The position numbers were made by a program, and so were the translations under genes. The notes beneath the pieces were generated by a model. The model saw nothing but the letters and a program-made list of their open reading frames with translations, was not told the origin of the DNA and did not search any database. Positions 5,261-42,434 of a stretch of 42,661 bases of DNA are shown one piece after another. Origin of the DNA: Fibrobacter sp. (GTDB lineage Bacteria > Fibrobacterota > Fibrobacteria > Fibrobacterales > Fibrobacteraceae); contig JAAZFC010000099.1 in assembly GCA_012511955.1 (NCBI GenBank), forward strand, positions 1 to 42,661, written 5' to 3'. Numbering within the stretch: the first letter of the stretch is position 1; every line of letters begins with the position of its first letter.

Positions 5261-8200
5261 ATGATAGACAATGATGAATCCCTATTGCAAGAATATTTAT
5301 CTGAATCCTTAGAGCATCTCGAAGGAATAGAAGACTCTATTTTAAAAATAGAAGAAGACGGTTCAAACACAGATGATGAGCTAGTAAATAAAGTTTTTAG
5401 AGCTGTTCATACCATTAAAGGCGGGGCAGGTTTTTTAAATTTGCAAAACATATCAGTGGTATGTCACGCCCAAGAAAGCATCTTGAATTTAGTTCGCAAC
5501 GGAGTAATAGTACCGGATAGCGAAATTACAAACGCGTTGTTGGTTAGTATAGATACGGTGCAATTGATGTTAGAAGATATAAGCACAGAAGCTAGCACCG
5601 ATGTAAGTAGTGAATTAGAAACTTTAAATAATATTTTAAAAAAATACTCCTCAGAAACATCAGCCATGGATGGTAATATGACAGATATTAGCACAGGTTC
5701 CTTAGTCGCCCTAATTTCCAGCGATGTTTTGGAAGATTTTACTAAACGGGGGTCTTGGGTATATCAATTTACTTTTAATGTTAAAAAGCCTAAACAATAC
5801 GGATATGACAATTTTGAAAGCTTGATTTCTGTATTGGATAAAACAGGAACTATACTTGCTTCTAATAGTCCAGAATTTCAAGATGCTCCTGATGGCATTT
5901 GGGAGCTGGCTTACGCTACTATATTAGAGCCTGCATTGCTTTACCAAATGCTAAAATTGTCTGCTGAAGAAGTTATAATTATTGTCAATCAAGATAAATT
6001 GTCAGAGTCTCAATCCGCAGAGCCAGCGGCTCAACCTGTGGCTACAAAAGTGGAAAAACAAGTTGTTAGCAAAAGTGATACCCAAGCTTCTCCCATAGGG
6101 GATGCTAGTGTGTCTGTGATAACAAATTCTCCTGAGGCTTCTGAGAAAATTCGAGTAAATTTATCTGTATTAGATAAATTAATGACTTTAGCGGGGGAAC
6201 TAGTGTTGGCGCGCAACCAATTGGTGCAAAGTGTAGCCAGCAAAAATCTAGAAACCATTGAAAGTAATTCTCGACAATTGAATTTTATCACTTCAGAATT
6301 ACAAATGGCTATTATGGCTACGCGCATGCAGCCTATTGGAAATGTTTTTAGCCGTTTTCGCCGTATTGTGCGCGATATGTCGCAGAGATTAGGCAAAAAA
6401 GTTAACCTGGAAATTACCGGTGAAGATGTTGAACTCGACCGCAGTATCATAGATGCCATTGGGGATCCTTTGACTCATATAGTGCGCAACTCCATGGATC
6501 ATGGTGTAGAAGTTCCCCATATACGCGAAGCTGCTGGTAAAAATGGTACTGCGCAAATCAGTTTGAAAGCGCGTCATGAAGCGGGCATGGTGGTTATAGA
6601 AATTGTAGATGATGGGGCGGGCATAGATCCAGCTAAAATCACTGAAAAAGCCATAGAAAAAAAGCTTATAGCTGCCAGTGATGTAGAAAGATTAAGTGAA
6701 AAAGAGGTGCTAAATCTCATTTTTGCTCCTGGATTTTCCACCGCAGCTGAAGTTACCGACATTTCCGGACGAGGCGTGGGGATGGATGTGGTGCGCACAT
6801 CTTTTGCTCGTTTAGGCGGCAGCGTAGATATTTCTTCTACTCTGGGGCAGGGCACTACTTTGCAAGTTCGCTTACCTCTAACTTTGGCTATAATCCCCGC
6901 TTTAATGGTACAAGTGGGAGCCCAAGTTTTTGCCATTCCCCAAGTAAATTTACAAGAGTTGGTGCGCATAGCTCCCGACCAAATAAAGCGCCGCATCAAT
7001 AAGGTAGGGGACTCTGTGTTTTTACGCCTGCGCGAAGAACTTATCCCACTATTATCCCTAAACGAAATTCTAGAGATAAAAAGCACTTTTGTACATCCTG
7101 AAACTGGTGCTGTACAGGAAAGCCAAAGGGAACAGTTTTGGGATCGCCGTCAACTAGACGATGTGGATTTGAATGACGATAATAGAAAGCAAGAGCAAGA
7201 TCGTCGTAATCGTTTAAGCGGTTCCATTAAAATTGCTGTGGTTACCACGGGAAGTGCTTCTTTTGGCGTGGTGGTAGATGGTTTCCAAGATACCGAAGAA
7301 GTCGTGTTGAAACCCTTGGGGTCTCATTTACAAAAATGTCGTTTTTATTCTGGTGCTACTATTTTAGGTGATGGCAATCCCGCTTTGATTTTTGATGTGG
7401 GAGGAATGGCAGAAAAGTGGTTAGATTTACAAGCTGTGGATGAAGTGCGAGAAAGTATAATCCAAAATGACATTCAGGCCGATAATGAAAAGCAGTCGTT
7501 AATTTTAATGAAAGGAGGTGGTAATCAATATTACGGTGCTCCTTTGGGATTAATTACTCGCATCGAAGAAGTGGCAGCTTCAGAAATAGAAAAAGTTGCC
7601 GACAAGTTGCATATCCATTACCGCAATGAAATTTTACAGCTATTTACTTTGGATAATGTGGCTGGAGTAGAGCCTCTAGCTGAGCAAAGCACTTACAATA
7701 TTGTGGTATTTGAAGTGCAAAATAAAAGTGTTGGTTTGATAGTTTCCGAAATCATTGATGCGGTAGAAACAGATGCTTATATTGACCAAGAAGCTTATAG
7801 CCAACCCGGGATAATGGGTTCCTCTATCATAGAAGGGCGCACTACTTTTATCTTGGATTTATATGGAATTGCCATTAAAAAAATGCCGGAACTAGCTGTG
7901 CAAAGCAAGGCTTTGGGGCAAGACGAAGGCTCTGAAGAAAAATTAGTTTTAGTGGTAGATGATTCTATATTTTTCCGTACACAAATACAGAAATTTGTGG
8001 AAGAAGCGGGTTATAAAGCTGTGGTGGCCGACGATGGTGCAACGGCTTGGCCGCTTATGGAAGAGCATAATTTTACTTTAGTGCTTACAGATATAGAAAT
8101 GCCCATCATGGATGGTTTAGAGTTTACTAGGCTTATCAAGGGGCACGAGAAGTTCAAAAACATACCTGTGGTAGCCATTACTTCACTAATGGGTAGTGAG

Positions 8201-8308
8201 GCAGAGGAAAGAGGTTATCAGGCAGGGGTCGATCAATATCTAGTTAAGCTTGATAGAGAGCAAATTGTAAACACTTTAAACCATTACCACAGTGTGGGGG
8301 TGAAATGA
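5261..8308 (+). CDS. cheA: Hybrid chemotaxis histidine kinase CheA with two CheW-like domains and a receiver
   Basis: The 1015-aa kinase sits in chemoreceptor arrays and passes phosphate from ATP to response regulators. The order is: HPt with AVHTIKGGAGFL (phospho-site H50); a region at about 150-260 resembling a CheY-docking P2 domain; dimerisation helices from about 295; an HATPase with N box DPLTHIVRNSMDHG near 402, DDGAGID near 449 and GRGVGMDVV near 503; a first CheW-like domain at about 545-715; a second at about 745-880; and a C-terminal receiver (LVLVVDDS) with phospho-acceptor D944 in LTDIEMP. A classical CheA has one CheW-like domain and no receiver, so this is a hybrid form. It overlaps the following cheW by 4 bases (ATGA). 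A purine-rich ribosome site (AGGAAAAAGG) precedes the ATG. Confidence 0.93.
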   Translation: MIDNDESLLQEYLSESLEHLEGIEDSILKIEEDGSNTDDELVNKVFRAVHTIKGGAGFLNLQNISVVCHAQESILNLVRNGVIVPDSEITNALLVSIDTVQLMLEDISTEASTDVSSELETLNNILKKYSSETSAMDGNMTDISTGSLVALISSDVLEDFTKRGSWVYQFTFNVKKPKQYGYDNFESLISVLDKTGTILASNSPEFQDAPDGIWELAYATILEPALLYQMLKLSAEEVIIIVNQDKLSESQSAEPAAQPVATKVEKQVVSKSDTQASPIGDASVSVITNSPEASEKIRVNLSVLDKLMTLAGELVLARNQLVQSVASKNLETIESNSRQLNFITSELQMAIMATRMQPIGNVFSRFRRIVRDMSQRLGKKVNLEITGEDVELDRSIIDAIGDPLTHIVRNSMDHGVEVPHIREAAGKNGTAQISLKARHEAGMVVIEIVDDGAGIDPAKITEKAIEKKLIAASDVERLSEKEVLNLIFAPGFSTAAEVTDISGRGVGMDVVRTSFARLGGSVDISSTLGQGTTLQVRLPLTLAIIPALMVQVGAQVFAIPQVNLQELVRIAPDQIKRRINKVGDSVFLRLREELIPLLSLNEILEIKSTFVHPETGAVQESQREQFWDRRQLDDVDLNDDNRKQEQDRRNRLSGSIKIAVVTTGSASFGVVVDGFQDTEEVVLKPLGSHLQKCRFYSGATILGDGNPALIFDVGGMAEKWLDLQAVDEVRESIIQNDIQADNEKQSLILMKGGGNQYYGAPLGLITRIEEVAASEIEKVADKLHIHYRNEILQLFTLDNVAGVEPLAEQSTYNIVVFEVQNKSVGLIVSEIIDAVETDAYIDQEAYSQPGIMGSSIIEGRTTFILDLYGIAIKKMPELAVQSKALGQDEGSEEKLVLVVDDSIFFRTQIQKFVEEAGYKAVVADDGATAWPLMEEHNFTLVLTDIEMPIMDGLEFTRLIKGHEKFKNIPVVAITSLMGSEAEERGYQAGVDQYLVKLDREQIVNTLNHYHSVGVK

Positions 8309-8770: not shown

Positions 8771-9613
8771 ATGGCCTTAAAGTCTATTTCTGATACAGAA
8801 TACGCAGAATTTGTACAATTAGTGTACGATCTAACAGGAATTATTCTTGATAATTCCAAAAAGTATCTTATTGAAACGCGTATTGGTCCTATAATCCAAG
8901 AGCAAGGTTTAGGGTCTTATGGCGAATTATTACAAAAAATTCGTTTGCCCACTAATGCTTTTTTCAAAGAGTTGGTCATAGATGCTATTACCACCAATGA
9001 GACATTTTTCTTTAGAGAACCTTGTGCCATCGACTTGTTGCGTCGGCGTTTAATGCCGCCAATTTTAGACTCTATTACTGAAGGTAAAAGGCGTGATTCT
9101 ATGCGTATATGGAGTGCGGCTTGTTCTTCGGGACAAGAAATGTACTCCATAGCTATTAGTGCCATGGAATTCATTGGTGATTTGGCTACCCAATATATTT
9201 CTTTAGATGGCACCGATATAAGTGAGCAAATTTTAGCTAAAGCTAGCATGGGGGTTTACAGTCAGTTTGAAGTTAATAGGGGGCTTAATGCTACTCATCT
9301 GAGTAAATATTTTACTCCTCATTCCCAGGGATATAAAATCAATGATAATATCCGTGCCATGTGTCGTTTTAATAAGGCAAACTTGTTGCGTTTAGCACCT
9401 TCGCCTGTGCGTTACGATGTGATTTTTTGCCGTAATGTGAGTATATATTTTGGAGCTAAAGAACGAGAAGTTCTTTTTAGATCCTTGGGAGAAAGGTTAG
9501 TACCCAATGGAGTATTGATTGTGGGGGCCACTGAGCAAGTGCGTGACTGTGATGATCTCTATTCTTTAGAAAAAGATTTTCCCGGCTGTTTTTACTATAG
9601 GAGAAGGCACTAA
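8771..9613 (+). CDS. cheR: Chemotaxis protein methyltransferase CheR
   Basis: The 280-aa enzyme uses SAM to methylate glutamates on chemoreceptors, the adaptation arm of chemotaxis. An N-terminal helical domain (EYAEFVQLVYDLTGI) is followed by TTNETFFFREP, the SAM-binding block RIWSAACSSGQEMYSIAI (family form RIWSAGCSTGEEPYSLAM), LDGTDIS and FCRNVSIYF. All are CheR hallmarks in the right order and spacing. No cheB methylesterase lies in the window. The stop codon overlaps the start of the PilZ gene by one base (TAATG). No convincing Shine-Dalgarno sequence precedes the ATG, so translation may depend on coupling to cheW. Confidence 0.93.
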   Translation: MALKSISDTEYAEFVQLVYDLTGIILDNSKKYLIETRIGPIIQEQGLGSYGELLQKIRLPTNAFFKELVIDAITTNETFFFREPCAIDLLRRRLMPPILDSITEGKRRDSMRIWSAACSSGQEMYSIAISAMEFIGDLATQYISLDGTDISEQILAKASMGVYSQFEVNRGLNATHLSKYFTPHSQGYKINDNIRAMCRFNKANLLRLAPSPVRYDVIFCRNVSIYFGAKEREVLFRSLGERLVPNGVLIVGATEQVRDCDDLYSLEKDFPGCFYYRRRH

Positions 9614-9948
9614 TGGAAGAACGAAGAAAGCGCCCACGCACTAACATGGAAGTGGAGTTCGAAGTGGGAAACGCTGATGGCTGGTTTAAAGCGCACAATA
9701 GCAAAGATTTAAGTATGAGTGGCGTACAAATATGCAGTAACCACAATTTTGCTTTGGGTAGTGAAGTTAAAATACGCTTAGCCATAAAAGATGTCCATGC
9801 CGAGTTAAAAAATGAGGAAGTTTTGGCTGAGGTTAAAAGAGTTAGTCAAATTAAAGTGGATCAGTGGTGTATTGGTTTAGAATTTAAGCAACTAAGTAGC
9901 GATGCCTCTATATTTTTGTACAATTTGATCAGATACCATAGCGATTAA
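9613..9948 (+). CDS. PilZ-domain protein (probable cyclic di-GMP receptor)
   Basis: The 111-aa protein is a single PilZ domain. It starts with the arginine motif ERRKRPR (RxxxR formed by R5 and R9). The second c-di-GMP motif, D/NxSxxG, appears as DLSMSG at residues 32-37, followed by the expected beta strands and GLEFKQL near the end. Both ligand motifs are intact, so c-di-GMP binding is likely. It overlaps cheR by one base and ends the che part of the operon, nine bases before xseA. This placement suggests that c-di-GMP level feeds into the CheA-CheW-CheR pathway. The direct target cannot be seen. Confidence 0.88.
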   Translation: MEERRKRPRTNMEVEFEVGNADGWFKAHNSKDLSMSGVQICSNHNFALGSEVKIRLAIKDVHAELKNEEVLAEVKRVSQIKVDQWCIGLEFKQLSSDASIFLYNLIRYHSD

Positions 9949-11499: not shown

Positions 11500-12717
11500 A
11501 TGTTAAGTGCCCAAGAACAATTAGATATATTAATGCGCGGTGTCATTGAAGTTGTACCCGAAGCAGAATTACTTAAAAAGTTAGAAAACAGTGTTGCCAA
11601 AAAGCAACCTTTACGCATAAAATTGGGGGTGGATCCCACTGCACCCGATGTGCATTTGGGGCATACCGTAGTTATGCGTAAATTAGCCCAATTTCAAAAA
11701 CTTGGGCACCAGGTGATTCTTATTGTGGGTGATTATACTGCAACAGTGGGAGATCCCAGTGGCCGCAGCAGTGCACGCCCGCGTTTAACCCACGCCGAAG
11801 TTTTGGAAAATGCTAAAACATACCAAGAGCAGTTTTTTAAAGTGGTAAATCGCGAGCAAACAGAAATTGTTTATAACGGCGATTGGTTTAAAACCATGAC
11901 TTTTGACCAAATTACCCAACTTATGGGGCAAATTACCGTGGCGCAAATGTTAGAACGCGAAGATTTTCAAAATCGCTATCGCCAGGGTAATCCCATATCT
12001 TTGCACGAGTTTTTGTATCCGCTGATGCAGGGTTATGATTCTTTAAAAATCAACTCCGATGTGGAATTGGGCGGTACTGATCAGAAGTTTAATGTGTTGC
12101 GCGGTCGCGATATACAGATTAACGAAGGGCAAGAACCGCAAATAGGCTTATTTATGCCAATTTTGTTGGGAACTGACGGTAAAATCAAAATGTCCAAAAG
12201 TGTGGGGAATTATATCGGGATCAATGAAGCACCTGATGTGATGTTTCATAAAATTTATAATATCCCTGACGAAATCATGGAAGATTGGTTTATTTTACTT
12301 ACCGACTTGCCTAATTCTGAAATTGATAAAATCATTGGCGATGTTAAAAGTGGGGTTTTATCTCCATCAGATGCTAAAAATCGCTAGGCTTTAGATGTGG
12401 TTAGCCAATATTACGACATTGAAAAAGCTCAAGCAGCTGCTCAGCGAGAAAAAGCTGTGCATACAGGCCAAGCCCTACCCTCCGATGCGCTTTATTTAGA
12501 AATAGACCCAGGGGAGTACCAAGTGGCAGATTTTTTAGTGAATATTGGTGCTTTTAAATCTAAAGGCGAAGCGCGCCGCATGGTACAAAATGGTGGAGTG
12601 CGACTTAATGATGAGAAAATCGCCGATCCAGTGGGAAGCCTAGATGTAAAAGCTCAATGCAATTGGGTGGTGCGCGTGGGTAAAAGAAGATGCTTTGTGG
12701 TAAATACTAAGGATTAA
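11500..12717 (+). pseudogene. tyrS: Tyrosyl-tRNA synthetase, reading frame interrupted by one TAG
   Basis: Read through one stop, the frame gives a full-length 405-residue TyrRS. It has HLGH at 52-55, DPSGRSSARP, the tyrosine/tRNA-site block YPLMQGYDSLKINSDVELGG, KMSKS at 230-234 and a C-terminal S4 domain (VADFLVNIGAFKSKGEARRM). The in-frame TAG is at 12385-12387 (residue 296), in DAKNR-TAG-ALDVV. Homologues usually have Leu there, so TTG to TAG is the simplest single change. Terminated product would keep the catalytic domain but lose part of the anticodon-binding helices and S4. The enzyme is normally essential, so a base-call error, readthrough, or a second copy elsewhere are the alternatives. 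The ATG at 11500 follows xseB by one base. The gene converges with a minus gene one base after its stop. Confidence 0.88.
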
Positions 12718-38565: not shown

Positions 38566-39251
38566 TTCATTTTATGCATGTTACTAAAAGCTATGCCCAG
38601 GGTTGGAAAGCTTTAAATGATGTTAGCTTTAAAATAAATAAGGGCGAGTTTGTATTTTTAACAGGACATTCGGGGGCGGGAAAGACCACTATATTAAGAT
38701 TAATTTATATGGATGAGCGCCCTGATAAAGAACGAGGTGGGCAAGTGTTGGTGCAAATGACACCATAATTGAGTTTCGATAGTAAAAACACCCCTGATAG
38801 CCAAATTCAGACCTTGCGACGCAAATTAGGTATAGTTTTTCAGGATTTTAAACTATTAAATGACCGTAATGTCTTTGAAAATATCGCCTTAGCTTTGCGA
38901 ATTTCCGGTTATCCTAACCATCAAATTAAACCCAAAGTTTATGAAGCCATGACTTTGGTGGGGATTAGTCAACGGCGTTTTGCTATGCCTTACACCTTGT
39001 CCGGGGGAGAGCAACAACGAGTGGCCATCGCTCGCGCCATGGTGCATGATCCTTATATTTTACTTGCCGATGAACCCACGGGAAATTTAGATCCCGAAAA
39101 TGCCCACGGTGTATTTGAAATCTTTAAAGAAATCAATGCTCGGGGCACAGCGGTGCTTATGGCCACCCACAACCCAAACTTCTATTTAAACAGCACTTTT
39201 CGCCGTTTAAACCTAGAGCAAGGGCGCTTATTAAATAGAGAAATCTTATAA
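38562..39251 (+). pseudogene. ftsE: Cell division ATP-binding protein FtsE, frame interrupted by one TAA
   Basis: Read through one stop, the frame gives a complete 229-residue ABC ATPase of the FtsE type. It has Walker A GHSGAGKTT (35-43), RRKLGIVFQDFKLL (Q loop), signature LSGGEQQR (146-153), Walker B ILLADEPTGNLD (D170, E171) and the His switch MATHN. FtsE works with the membrane protein FtsX at the septum to activate cell wall hydrolases. The in-frame TAA is at 38766-38768 (residue 69, GQVLVQMTP then LSFDSK). Stopping there leaves only the Walker A part, which cannot work. No ftsX follows; a CheA gene comes next. A base error, decay or readthrough are possible. It is coupled to the preceding methyltransferase by a 4-base overlap. 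Confidence 0.85.
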
Positions 39252-39340: not shown

Positions 39341-41899
39341 ATGACTGATGATGGGTCAGATAGCGAAATATTAAGTTTACTTTCACAGTTAGAAGTTTTA
39401 GTAAATCAGATGAATGTTCATGATTTGCCCACTTTGGTAAATCTTTTTCCTATCATAGATAAAATTAATTGCTGCGATAAAATTCCTTCAGCTTTTGTGG
39501 CTAAAACTTGTCGCATCAAAGAAGATATAGAAGCTGCTATAATGGGTGAAACAGTTTTAGAGAGTGTGTTGCCCAGAATTAAACATGGACTTTTTACGGC
39601 TATATCTAGTTTAAGCCCTTCTACTAATGTAGTTGCAGAAAAGAAAAGTTCACCTATGAAGTCTTTGCCAGAGAAAGAACCGTCCTCTAAAAGCGAAATT
39701 ACTGTAGAAGTTGATTTGGATTTAGTGCGAAAATTCTGTGATGAACAACAAAATCATTTAGAAGACTTAGAGATATACGCCTTAGAATGGGAAAAAGGTT
39801 GTGCCCAAGCTTTACCTGAAATAAAGCGTTATTTACATACTTTAAAAGGCGAGTTTGGGGTTTTAAATTACCCTCAACTGGCGAATTTAATCCATATAGT
39901 AGAAGATGCCCTAGATCAAGATAAATTTAGTGCCGATTATCTTTTACGACTAAAAGATTATTTAAGTAATGTAATGCCATTGCTGTACAAAGGGCAAAGT
40001 GCTGAAATAGAAACTAAGGATTTGATAGAGCTTGGACTAGCAGTCGCAGAAGAAAAAATAGAAAAGGCCGAAAATCCTGAGGAAACTAACACAGATTTTG
40101 CCAATGATCCCAGTTTTGTCATAGATTTTATATAAGAGTCCCTAGAGCATATAGCTGATATGGAAGCTAATTTGCTCCAACTAGACGATGACCTAAACAA
40201 TATTGAAAGATTACATACCTTTTTTAGAGCTTGTCATACCATTAAAGGTTTGGCGGGTTTTTTACGATTTGATGATATTCAAGAGTTGGCCCATGTTGTA
40301 GAAACTTTAGTGGATGAATTGCGCGAGGGTAAATTTGAAGTTAAACATTGCCATGTGGATGTGCTTTTTACCGCCGTGGATTTATTTAAGGACTTATTTG
40401 AGGTGGTGCGTGCTAGTTTAGAGGGGGTTACATTGGTGCGCCCTACAAACTTTGCTAAGGTGCTTAAATGCTTAGTTAATGTAAATAGAAGCGATTGTGA
40501 TTTCAAAGTGGATCCTACCAAAAAGCTAGGTGAAGTTTTAGTGGATGCGGGTATCATTCACCCAAAAAGAGTGGAAACAGCCATTGTTAAGCAGGTCAGG
40601 GGAGATAAACGCAAAGTGGGGGAGATTTTAGTAGAAGAATCGGTGATTACTCCCCAAACTGTGGAAAAAGTGTTACACGCGCAAAAAGAAGGGCGTTCTA
40701 AACGCTCATCTGAAATAATAGAAGAATCCGTGCGAGTGCCAGTACGCCGTTTGGATCATCTCATAGACTCCATTGGCGAAGCGGTAATTGCCCAATCCAT
40801 GATTGCAGCGGATCCTTTAATTAATGATGAAAATTTTGAAGCCAGTGGGGCAGATAGAGAATTACTGCGCTTAAAGGTAGCCCGAGCCGAAGTTATCATG
40901 CGCCAAATCCAAGAACTTTCCATGTCTTTGCGCATGGTTTCCATTAGGAGTGTTTTTCAAAAAATGGGTCGCTTGGTGCGAGATTTATCGCGGGAAACTG
41001 GTAAAAAAGTGGATTTAATTTTAGAGGGAGAAAACACTGAATTAGACAAAACCGTCATCGAAAACATAGGCGACCCCTTGGTGCACATGGTGCGCAACGC
41101 TTTGGATCATGGCTTGGAAACTGTGGAAGAGCGTTTGGCTAATAATAAACCCGAGCAAGGCACGCTGAAGCTGCATGCTTTTCACTGTGCGGGCAATGTG
41201 CATATAGAAATCAAAGATGATGGGCGTGGTTTAGATAAAGCTCAAATTTTAAATAAAGCCATAGAGCGAGGTATTGTAGATGGCAAGCAAAGCTTGTCTG
41301 ATACCGAGATTTACAATTTGATTTTTGCTCCTGGATTTTCCACCGCAGCGGAAGTTACCAATATTTCTGGGCGTGGGGTGGGCATGGATGTGGTGCGTAA
41401 AAACATTGAAGAACTGCGCGGTTCCGTAGAAATTAGTTCTGAATTAGGTCGTGGCACTACTTTTACCATCGCATTGCCCCTTACTTTGGCCATTATTGAC
41501 GGTATGGTGGTGAGTTTAGATAGTGAACGCTATATAGTTCCCACTTTGAGTATTGTTACTACAGTGGCTTTGGAATCTGGAATGATTTCCACTGTGGCCG
41601 GTAAAGGCGAAGTTATCACTTTACGGGGCGAACTGGTGCGCTTGGTGCGTTTAGAACATCTTTTTAATGAAGCTACTACTTGGCAAAATTCAAAAAATGG
41701 CGTGGTAGTGGTTCTCAGCGACTCTACGGGGAAAAAAGTGGGGCTTTTGGTAGATGAAATTTTGGAACAACAGCAGGTAGTAATCAAAAACATGGGAGGT
41801 TCTATAGTCGAAGTCCCCGGTATCAGTGGGGGTGCAATTATGAATGATGGCACTGTTAGTCTTATTATAGATGTGGCAATGCTATTGAGACAAATTTAA
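39341..41899 (+). pseudogene. CheA-type kinase with two HPt domains and MshEN-like motifs, frame interrupted by one TAA
   Basis: Read through one stop, the frame encodes an 852-residue chemotaxis kinase. The first HPt has LHTLKGEFGVL (H166). The second HPt has ACHTIKGLAGFL (H299). Tandem MshEN-like motifs lie at 395-448. Then come dimerisation helices, an HATPase (GDPLVHMVRNALDHG near 575, KDDGRGLD, FAPGFSTAAEVTNISGRG) and one C-terminal CheW-like domain. No receiver is present. The TAA at 40133-40135 (residue 265) falls in DFI-TAA-ESLEHI at the start of the second HPt, where Glu or Gln is common, so GAA or CAA to TAA is a single change. Restart at ATG 40160 would give a 579-aa kinase whose second HPt lacks the first part of its opening helix. 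Sequencing error, truncation or readthrough are the options. Confidence 0.85.
40523..40684 (+). other. Tandem MshEN-like 24-residue motifs inside the second CheA
   Basis: Two 24-residue repeats run from KLGEVLVDAGII to a final Q (40523-40594) and from KVGEILVEESVIT to a final Q (40613-40684), separated by six residues. The pattern xLGxxLxxxGxIxxxxVxxxxxxQ is that of the MshEN/GspE N-terminal c-di-GMP-binding fold. Position 1 is Lys instead of Arg in both, and the second motif has Ser for Gly at position 10. Confidence 0.65.
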
Positions 41900-41915: not shown

Positions 41916-42434
41916 ATGGCAGAAAACACCGAAAACGCTAGCGTGGCTGATAACGAAGTAGGTTTAGCCTTGGCTGGCAAATATCTAACCTTTTTCCTTG
42001 CCGAAGAAGAATACGGACTAAAGATTCTTAAGGTGCAGGAAATTATCCAAATGCAAACCATTACTCGAGTACCCCGTACTCCTGATTTTGTGCGTGGCGT
42101 GATCAACTTGCGAGGCAAAGTGATACCCGTGGTGGAGTTGCGCAAAAAATTTGACCTTCCCACGGTGGAAGATACGGAAAGAACTTGCATTATAGTGGTG
42201 CAGATTCAACAAAAAGCTGAAACTGTAATAATGGGAGTAATCATAGACGAAGTACGCGAAGTCTTAGACATTGAGGCGGAAAACATCGAAGAAGCTCCAT
42301 CATTTGGCGCCAGCATAGACACGGACTTTATTTTAGGAATGGGAAAGTTCGAGCAAAGTGTTAAAATACTCTTGGATATAGATAGAGTGCTAAGTAACGA
42401 TGAACTAGAATCAATAAATAAACTAGGCAATTAA
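41916..42434 (+). CDS. cheW: CheW coupling protein of the second chemosensory locus
   Basis: The 172-aa protein is a clear CheW: KYLTFFLAEEEYGLKILKVQEI, ITRVPRTPDFVRGVINLRGKVIPVVELRKKF (signature VxGxxNLRGxxIPVxDLRxxF) and VIMGVIIDEVREVLDI. It links receptors to the kinase. An N-terminal extension of about 20 polar residues (MAENTENASVADNEV) precedes the domain. GAGGAG sits 5-7 bases before the ATG. It follows the second cheA by 17 bases and precedes an MCP gene by 19 bases, the usual kinase-adaptor-receptor order. It is a more canonical CheW than the one at 8305. Confidence 0.95.
   Translation: MAENTENASVADNEVGLALAGKYLTFFLAEEEYGLKILKVQEIIQMQTITRVPRTPDFVRGVINLRGKVIPVVELRKKFDLPTVEDTERTCIIVVQIQQKAETVIMGVIIDEVREVLDIEAENIEEAPSFGASIDTDFILGMGKFEQSVKILLDIDRVLSNDELESINKLGN

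Follow-up and report, generated by a model that had tools for sequence, protein, structure and literature searches.

Does a chemotaxis kinase of Fibrobacter sp. contain its own binding module for cyclic di-GMP (c-di-GMP)? The question is raised by a reading frame at 39341–41899 in the stretch of DNA analysed here, which is 42,661 nucleotides long and is hereafter called the window. According to the original prediction, a CheA protein has two tandem 24-residue repeats, resembling the motifs of MshEN domains, inserted after its second HPt domain and ahead of its dimerisation helices.

Repeats in the P1–P3 linker of a CheA-type kinase

The frame lies on the forward strand, as do its domains, the repeats and the cheW gene that follows, and its translation, which contains one in-frame TAA, has the order HPt-HPt-repeats-P3-P4-P5. 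The HPt, H-kinase_dim, HATPase_c and CheW domains of a CheA all scored above their Pfam cut-offs. The two HPt (P1) domains are at 39719–39967 and 40145–40360 (PF01627, 39.4 and 38.8 bits), followed beyond the repeats by the dimerisation domain (P3, H-kinase_dim) at 40724–40927 (PF02895, 35.5 bits), the ATP-binding kinase domain (P4, HATPase_c) at 41072–41485 (PF02518, 70.6 bits) and the CheW-like domain (P5) at 41501–41893 (PF01584, 79.3 bits). This Pfam order confirms the predicted location and neighbours of the repeats, and the H-kinase_dim match begins about 13 residues past the second of them. No P2 domain was detected in this CheA. A separate cheW gene is found immediately downstream of the frame at 41916–42434 (PF01584, 127 bits), and Rfam and tRNA scans of the whole window returned one tRNA-Lys only.

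Motif I (KLGEVLVDAGIIHPKRVETAIVKQ, 40523–40594) and motif II (KVGEILVEESVITPQTVEKVLHAQ, 40613–40684) are separated by the six-residue spacer VRGDKR (40595–40612), the gap between the two scored motifs. We ranked all 29,441 stop-free 24-mers of the six frames with a profile made solely from 27 PilB-type proteins. The repeats came first and second, with 14.3 and 8.7 bits, and the third-ranked 24-mer scored -0.6. None of 1000 shuffles of the 587-residue segment reached the pair score of 23.0, the best shuffle scoring -7.0.

Both motifs have Lys1, Gly3 and Gln24, with hydrophobic residues at positions 2, 17 and 21. The deviations that the original prediction had listed are all present: Lys at position 1, a spacer of six residues and the missing Gly of motif II, where Ser10 is found. 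Motif II additionally has Val for Leu at position 2. The strict pair of Wang et al. 2016 (RLG...G...L...L..Q twice, spacer of five) prescribes Arg1, Leu2/17/21, Gly10 and five spacer residues; the window has Lys1 twice, Val or Ile at four of the six Leu places, Ser10 in motif II and a spacer of six, while the Gly3 and Gln24 of the strict pair are retained in both motifs. The strict and the extended published consensus therefore both miss the pair, because of the absent Gly10 in motif II and the Val or Ile residues at four of the six Leu places.

Profile searches and predicted fold

The NCBIfam model NF053729, a curated 53-position model of a cyclic di-GMP-binding domain related to MshE, matched the repeats at exactly 40523–40684. 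The whole model was covered (positions 1–53 of 53), with 41.2 bits in the protein scan and 45.2 bits in the genome search against a cut-off of 38, which, with an agreeing predicted fold, bears out the likening to MshEN motifs. Elsewhere in the genome this model matched only two pairs, both in one PilB-type protein (L001, G000:C69) that has two successive MshEN-type pairs. The window encodes a second CheA (5261–8308), which has HPt and CheW matches and carries a receiver domain at its C-terminus; NF053729 does not match it.

The search against MshEN/T2SSE_N (PF05157) proposed along with the original prediction returned no match. For PilB proteins of the phylum 30 PilB-type frames were listed, and in 28 of them PF05157 first aligns where the motif pairs end or shortly after; the starts for L135 and L137 (about 409 and 417) are an artefact of the assumed 1500-base flank. 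Because PilB proteins have their motif pair ahead of the region that the Pfam model covers, the model is blind to the module, and we rejected its miss as evidence against MshEN. The C-terminal subdomain of PF05157 had no match in the window repeats, which thus fall short of a full MshEN/T2SSE_N domain. The Pfam family DUF4388 scored 19.8–24.0 bits on the repeats, below its cut-off of 25.

A profile of 30 CheA repeat pairs was compared with PDB sequences, and chains of PilF, PilB or MshE were the best 14 of the 16 matches. Aligned by hhalign with both PilB pairs, the CheA repeat-pair profile gave a probability of 98.7 percent.

We used AlphaFold2 to predict the structure of the 68-residue segment, aligned with 29 relatives. 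The alignments used for structure prediction were made without L033, L097 and any loci from the genome search. The model comprises four helices with a mean pLDDT of 85.4; motif position 2 marks the start of helices 1 and 3, and there is no extra N-terminal turn. The first two Foldseek rows are 5htl, MshE with c-di-GMP (rmsd of 1.0–1.1 over 57 columns, probability 1.00, E 0.23), and the third is 8pdk, PilF GSPII-B with c-di-GMP (probability 0.93, E 0.70), E-values that are weak for so short a model, with the further proviso that AlphaFold2 may know 5htl. VIA-align gave Z-scores of 10.1 and 10.0 over 59 residues (10.1 for 5htl); by the tool's own caution, a Z of about 10 alone is unsafe for a helical bundle, and here sequence and fold point to one family. 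The structure prediction called for at the outset thus yields, as a model, the four-helix fold of the MshEN N-terminal subdomain, on which Foldseek and VIA-align agree.

In a longer AlphaFold2 model of 275 residues, helix 4 of the module spans residues 173–197 (40652–40726), continuing towards the dimerisation helices and ending just before those of P3, with a mean pLDDT of 64 for residues 191–200. CheA P1 structures came first in the structure search with this model because P1 dominates it, and no MshEN chain was among the 50 matches listed; the MshEN comparison used the 68-residue model only. The profile matches and the predicted fold support the identification of the window repeats as an MshEN-type c-di-GMP motif pair.

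Conservation among CheA and PilB relatives

The relatives compared come from the best 80 of 593 loci, which is not a random sample. They include 42 repeat-bearing CheAs, the window's among them, after removal of the PilB rows (L001), both L080 pieces, and L042_196 and L042_219, which are pieces of a second CheA-like frame at locus L042. This locus is a single Nitrospinaceae contig with two CheA-like frames, both repeat-bearing, the second of 524 residues. The 51 CheAs without detected repeats were taken from the 63 supplied with alignment A6; the other 12, relatives of the window (L015–L017 and L019–L027, in part), were left out.

Among the 42 CheAs, Gly3 is found in both repeats of all, Gln24 in both repeats of 39, and hydrophobic residues at 2, 17 and 21 in both repeats of 40. 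Other positions vary. Arg, Lys or Leu occupies position 1 of both repeats in 12/42, Pro occurs there in motif I of 10 and motif II of 16, and 25, including the window, lack Gly10 in motif II. The spacer ranges from 1 to 17 residues, with six residues in 18/42 and five to seven in 25/42. Ten CheAs, the window among them, keep all contact rules in both repeats, including R/K/L at position 1, and nine of these ten have a spacer of five to seven. Unlike the CheAs, 25 of 27 PilB-type proteins of the phylum have the spacing 5-7-5. The second pair of these proteins keeps Gln24 in both motifs in 27/27, and the first pair keeps it in its first motif in 5/27. Given the range of spacers and the frequent Pro1, unlike PilB, not all CheA pairs need bind c-di-GMP.

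NF053729 matched 24 of the 42 repeat-bearing CheAs with E <= 1e-9, a threshold near the 38-bit cut-off (38.9 bits corresponds to 5.3e-10), compared with at most 3 of the 51 without detected repeats, an upper bound, since the listing of 25 families ends with ones of 3 members and does not include the model. Repeat-bearing CheAs occur in nine named phyla besides the window's own: Thermodesulfobacteriota, Nitrospirota, Nitrospinota, Myxococcota, Actinomycetota, Gemmatimonadota, Planctomycetota, Pseudomonadota and Candidatus Auribacterota. A tree of 105 kinase cores was built by a quick method; L045 and L007 form very long branches in it, and three rows are less than half filled. We use it only for the number of changes in repeat presence, which is at least 10 by the starred branches, gains or losses, and 17 by the simplest count.

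GGDEF proteins co-occur with 41/41 repeat-bearing CheAs and 47/51 of the others (Fisher p 0.13), and we rejected this as a discriminator. The neighbour genes of two relatives are ordinary che genes with no c-di-GMP clue among them. The genome itself has 13 GGDEF matches, three PilZ matches and FliG (c-di-GMP enzymes and a flagellar gene). A single-domain PilZ gene (9613–9948), with RxxxR-like and DxSxxG motifs, starts at the stop of cheR (8771–9613), which belongs to the window's other che cluster, and is possibly a second link between c-di-GMP and chemotaxis.

Proposed function, alternatives and known systems

We propose, with a probability of about 0.6, that the repeats are an isolated MshEN/GSPII N-terminal subdomain in the P1–P3 linker of CheA, which binds c-di-GMP and thereby alters autophosphorylation or phosphotransfer. 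The sequence family, the predicted fold, the conserved ligand-contact positions and the P1–P3 location support this proposal, and from them we infer ligand binding and the steps beyond. The four helices, two per repeat, would form one c-di-GMP site with one guanine for each repeat. Binding would pin the two helical hairpins together, and the change may travel along helix 4 to the P3 dimerisation helices, or else alter the reach of P1 to P4. The outcome would be changed autophosphorylation or phosphotransfer; as for its sign, we would hazard a guess, weakly held, that the kinase is damped at high c-di-GMP.

Measured binders offer an analogy for the deviant positions. As reported in PMC11731258, PilF GSPII-B, which has Lys and Leu as its position-1 residues, binds c-di-GMP at 6 nM, and the extended consensus allows R/K/L there. 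In a weaker site, ascribed to GSPII-C, this position of motif II is occupied by Pro335. By our own count from the alignment of the CheA profile with PDB sequences, GSPII-C has a spacer of seven residues. Deviations in position 1 and in the spacer are thus tolerated in measured binders, and the caveats attached to the original prediction are not fatal. According to PMC12002112, replacing Leu by Ile at positions 17 and 21 brings a loss of about 2.4-fold, both Gln24 residues and a suitable position 1 are indispensable, and high affinity depends on Gly3.

The same source supplies the precedent for the strongest alternative, namely that the module keeps the MshEN fold and has lost its ligand, serving as a structural spacer or docking surface: PilF GSPII-A folds and does not bind, an extra first turn helping to block it. 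The variable spacers (1–17) and frequent Pro1 of the CheA relatives fit such a loss, as does the weak similarity to DUF4388 (24.0 bits against 25). However, Gly3 and Gln24 are near-invariant in both CheA repeats, in contrast to the erosion of Gln24 in the first pair of PilB. The window also keeps the positions found necessary in PMC12002112 (Gln24 twice, a suitable position 1 and Gly3), and the blocking turn of GSPII-A is not predicted in its module. We consider loss of the ligand unlikely, though worth weighing.

A replacement of P2 by the module, which would recruit a response regulator such as CheY with or without c-di-GMP, appears improbable. The module does occupy the place of P2, and the CheY-binding domain (PF09078) is present in 0/42 repeat-bearing CheAs against 6/51 of the others (Fisher p 0.03, counts uncorrected for kinship). 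According to PMC10782961, however, P2 models are insensitive; moreover, many CheAs lack both P2 and repeats, and the module has the fold of a nucleotide-binding subdomain. With a p-value that ignores kinship, we set the absence of P2 aside as weak evidence.

The in-frame TAA of cheA (40133–40135), which the original prediction had overlooked, lies within the second HPt, at an alignment column that is variable among relatives. Single in-frame stops also interrupt tyrS (TAG, 12385–12387) and an ftsE-like ABC gene (TAA, 38766–38768) in the window, and elsewhere in this genome TAA cuts gyrB (L147) and a gene for a carboxyltransferase (L148). The interrupted frames lie within the 279 kb examined, and their stops are all TAA or TAG, none TGA. 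Because several conserved genes of the assembly are cut in the same way, consensus errors are the simplest reading, and the cheA TAA is probably an assembly error of this kind. A recoded stop codon was rejected: both TAA and TAG are involved, the place in cheA is variable in relatives, TAA also ends genes, and the stops in gyrB and the carboxyltransferase gene presumably replace different residues. That the kinase gene is broken in this organism, leaving the module idle, is accordingly improbable as well: the TAA speaks for it, as does the ATG at 40160, which has no clear ribosome site upstream, while the similarly cut gyrB, tyrS, ftsE-like and carboxyltransferase genes and the otherwise intact cheA frame speak against.

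We thus return to c-di-GMP binding as the preferred reading, a putative function of the module that is well founded. Known links between c-di-GMP and chemotaxis run via PilZ adaptors or receptors. Should the module bind c-di-GMP, the messenger would target the central chemotaxis kinase itself, a direct wire from biofilm signalling to chemotaxis without a PilZ adaptor. More tentatively, and with the odds slightly against it, a wide and mostly unannotated class of CheAs, in the nine named phyla and the window's own, may be c-di-GMP receptors in which the messenger sets kinase output directly from the P1–P3 linker. Pfam's MshEN model does not see this module. The available text of a 2023 survey of CheA architectures (PMC10542144; journal version PMC10782961) makes no mention of MshEN, T2SS or c-di-GMP, and we found no report of c-di-GMP binding to CheA in the open-licence literature, subscription journals being outside the scope of the search.

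The combination itself is not new. A single sentence in the portion of Wang et al. 2016 (PMC5013675) available to us names CheA as one of several domains with which MshEN is associated; these CheAs share the MshEN-type motif and CheA combination with the window, and that portion gives no position, conservation or test. Comparison with known domains indicates what is particular to the window module. To DUF4388 its repeats have a weak, sub-threshold similarity. With GSPII-B and GSPII-C of Thermus thermophilus PilF, both of which bind c-di-GMP, it has in common an Arg-free position 1 (Lys and Leu in B, Pro in motif II of C), but these are full GSPII domains in a pilus ATPase, and GSPII-C has a third motif. 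It resembles the MshEN domain of Vibrio cholerae MshE (5HTL) in its two 24-residue motifs, its predicted four-helix subdomain and the Gly3 and Gln24 of both motifs. Relative to MshE, the window module has Lys in place of Arg1, a spacer of six rather than five, Ser for Gly10 in motif II and no C-terminal subdomain, and its host is a chemotaxis kinase instead of an ATPase.
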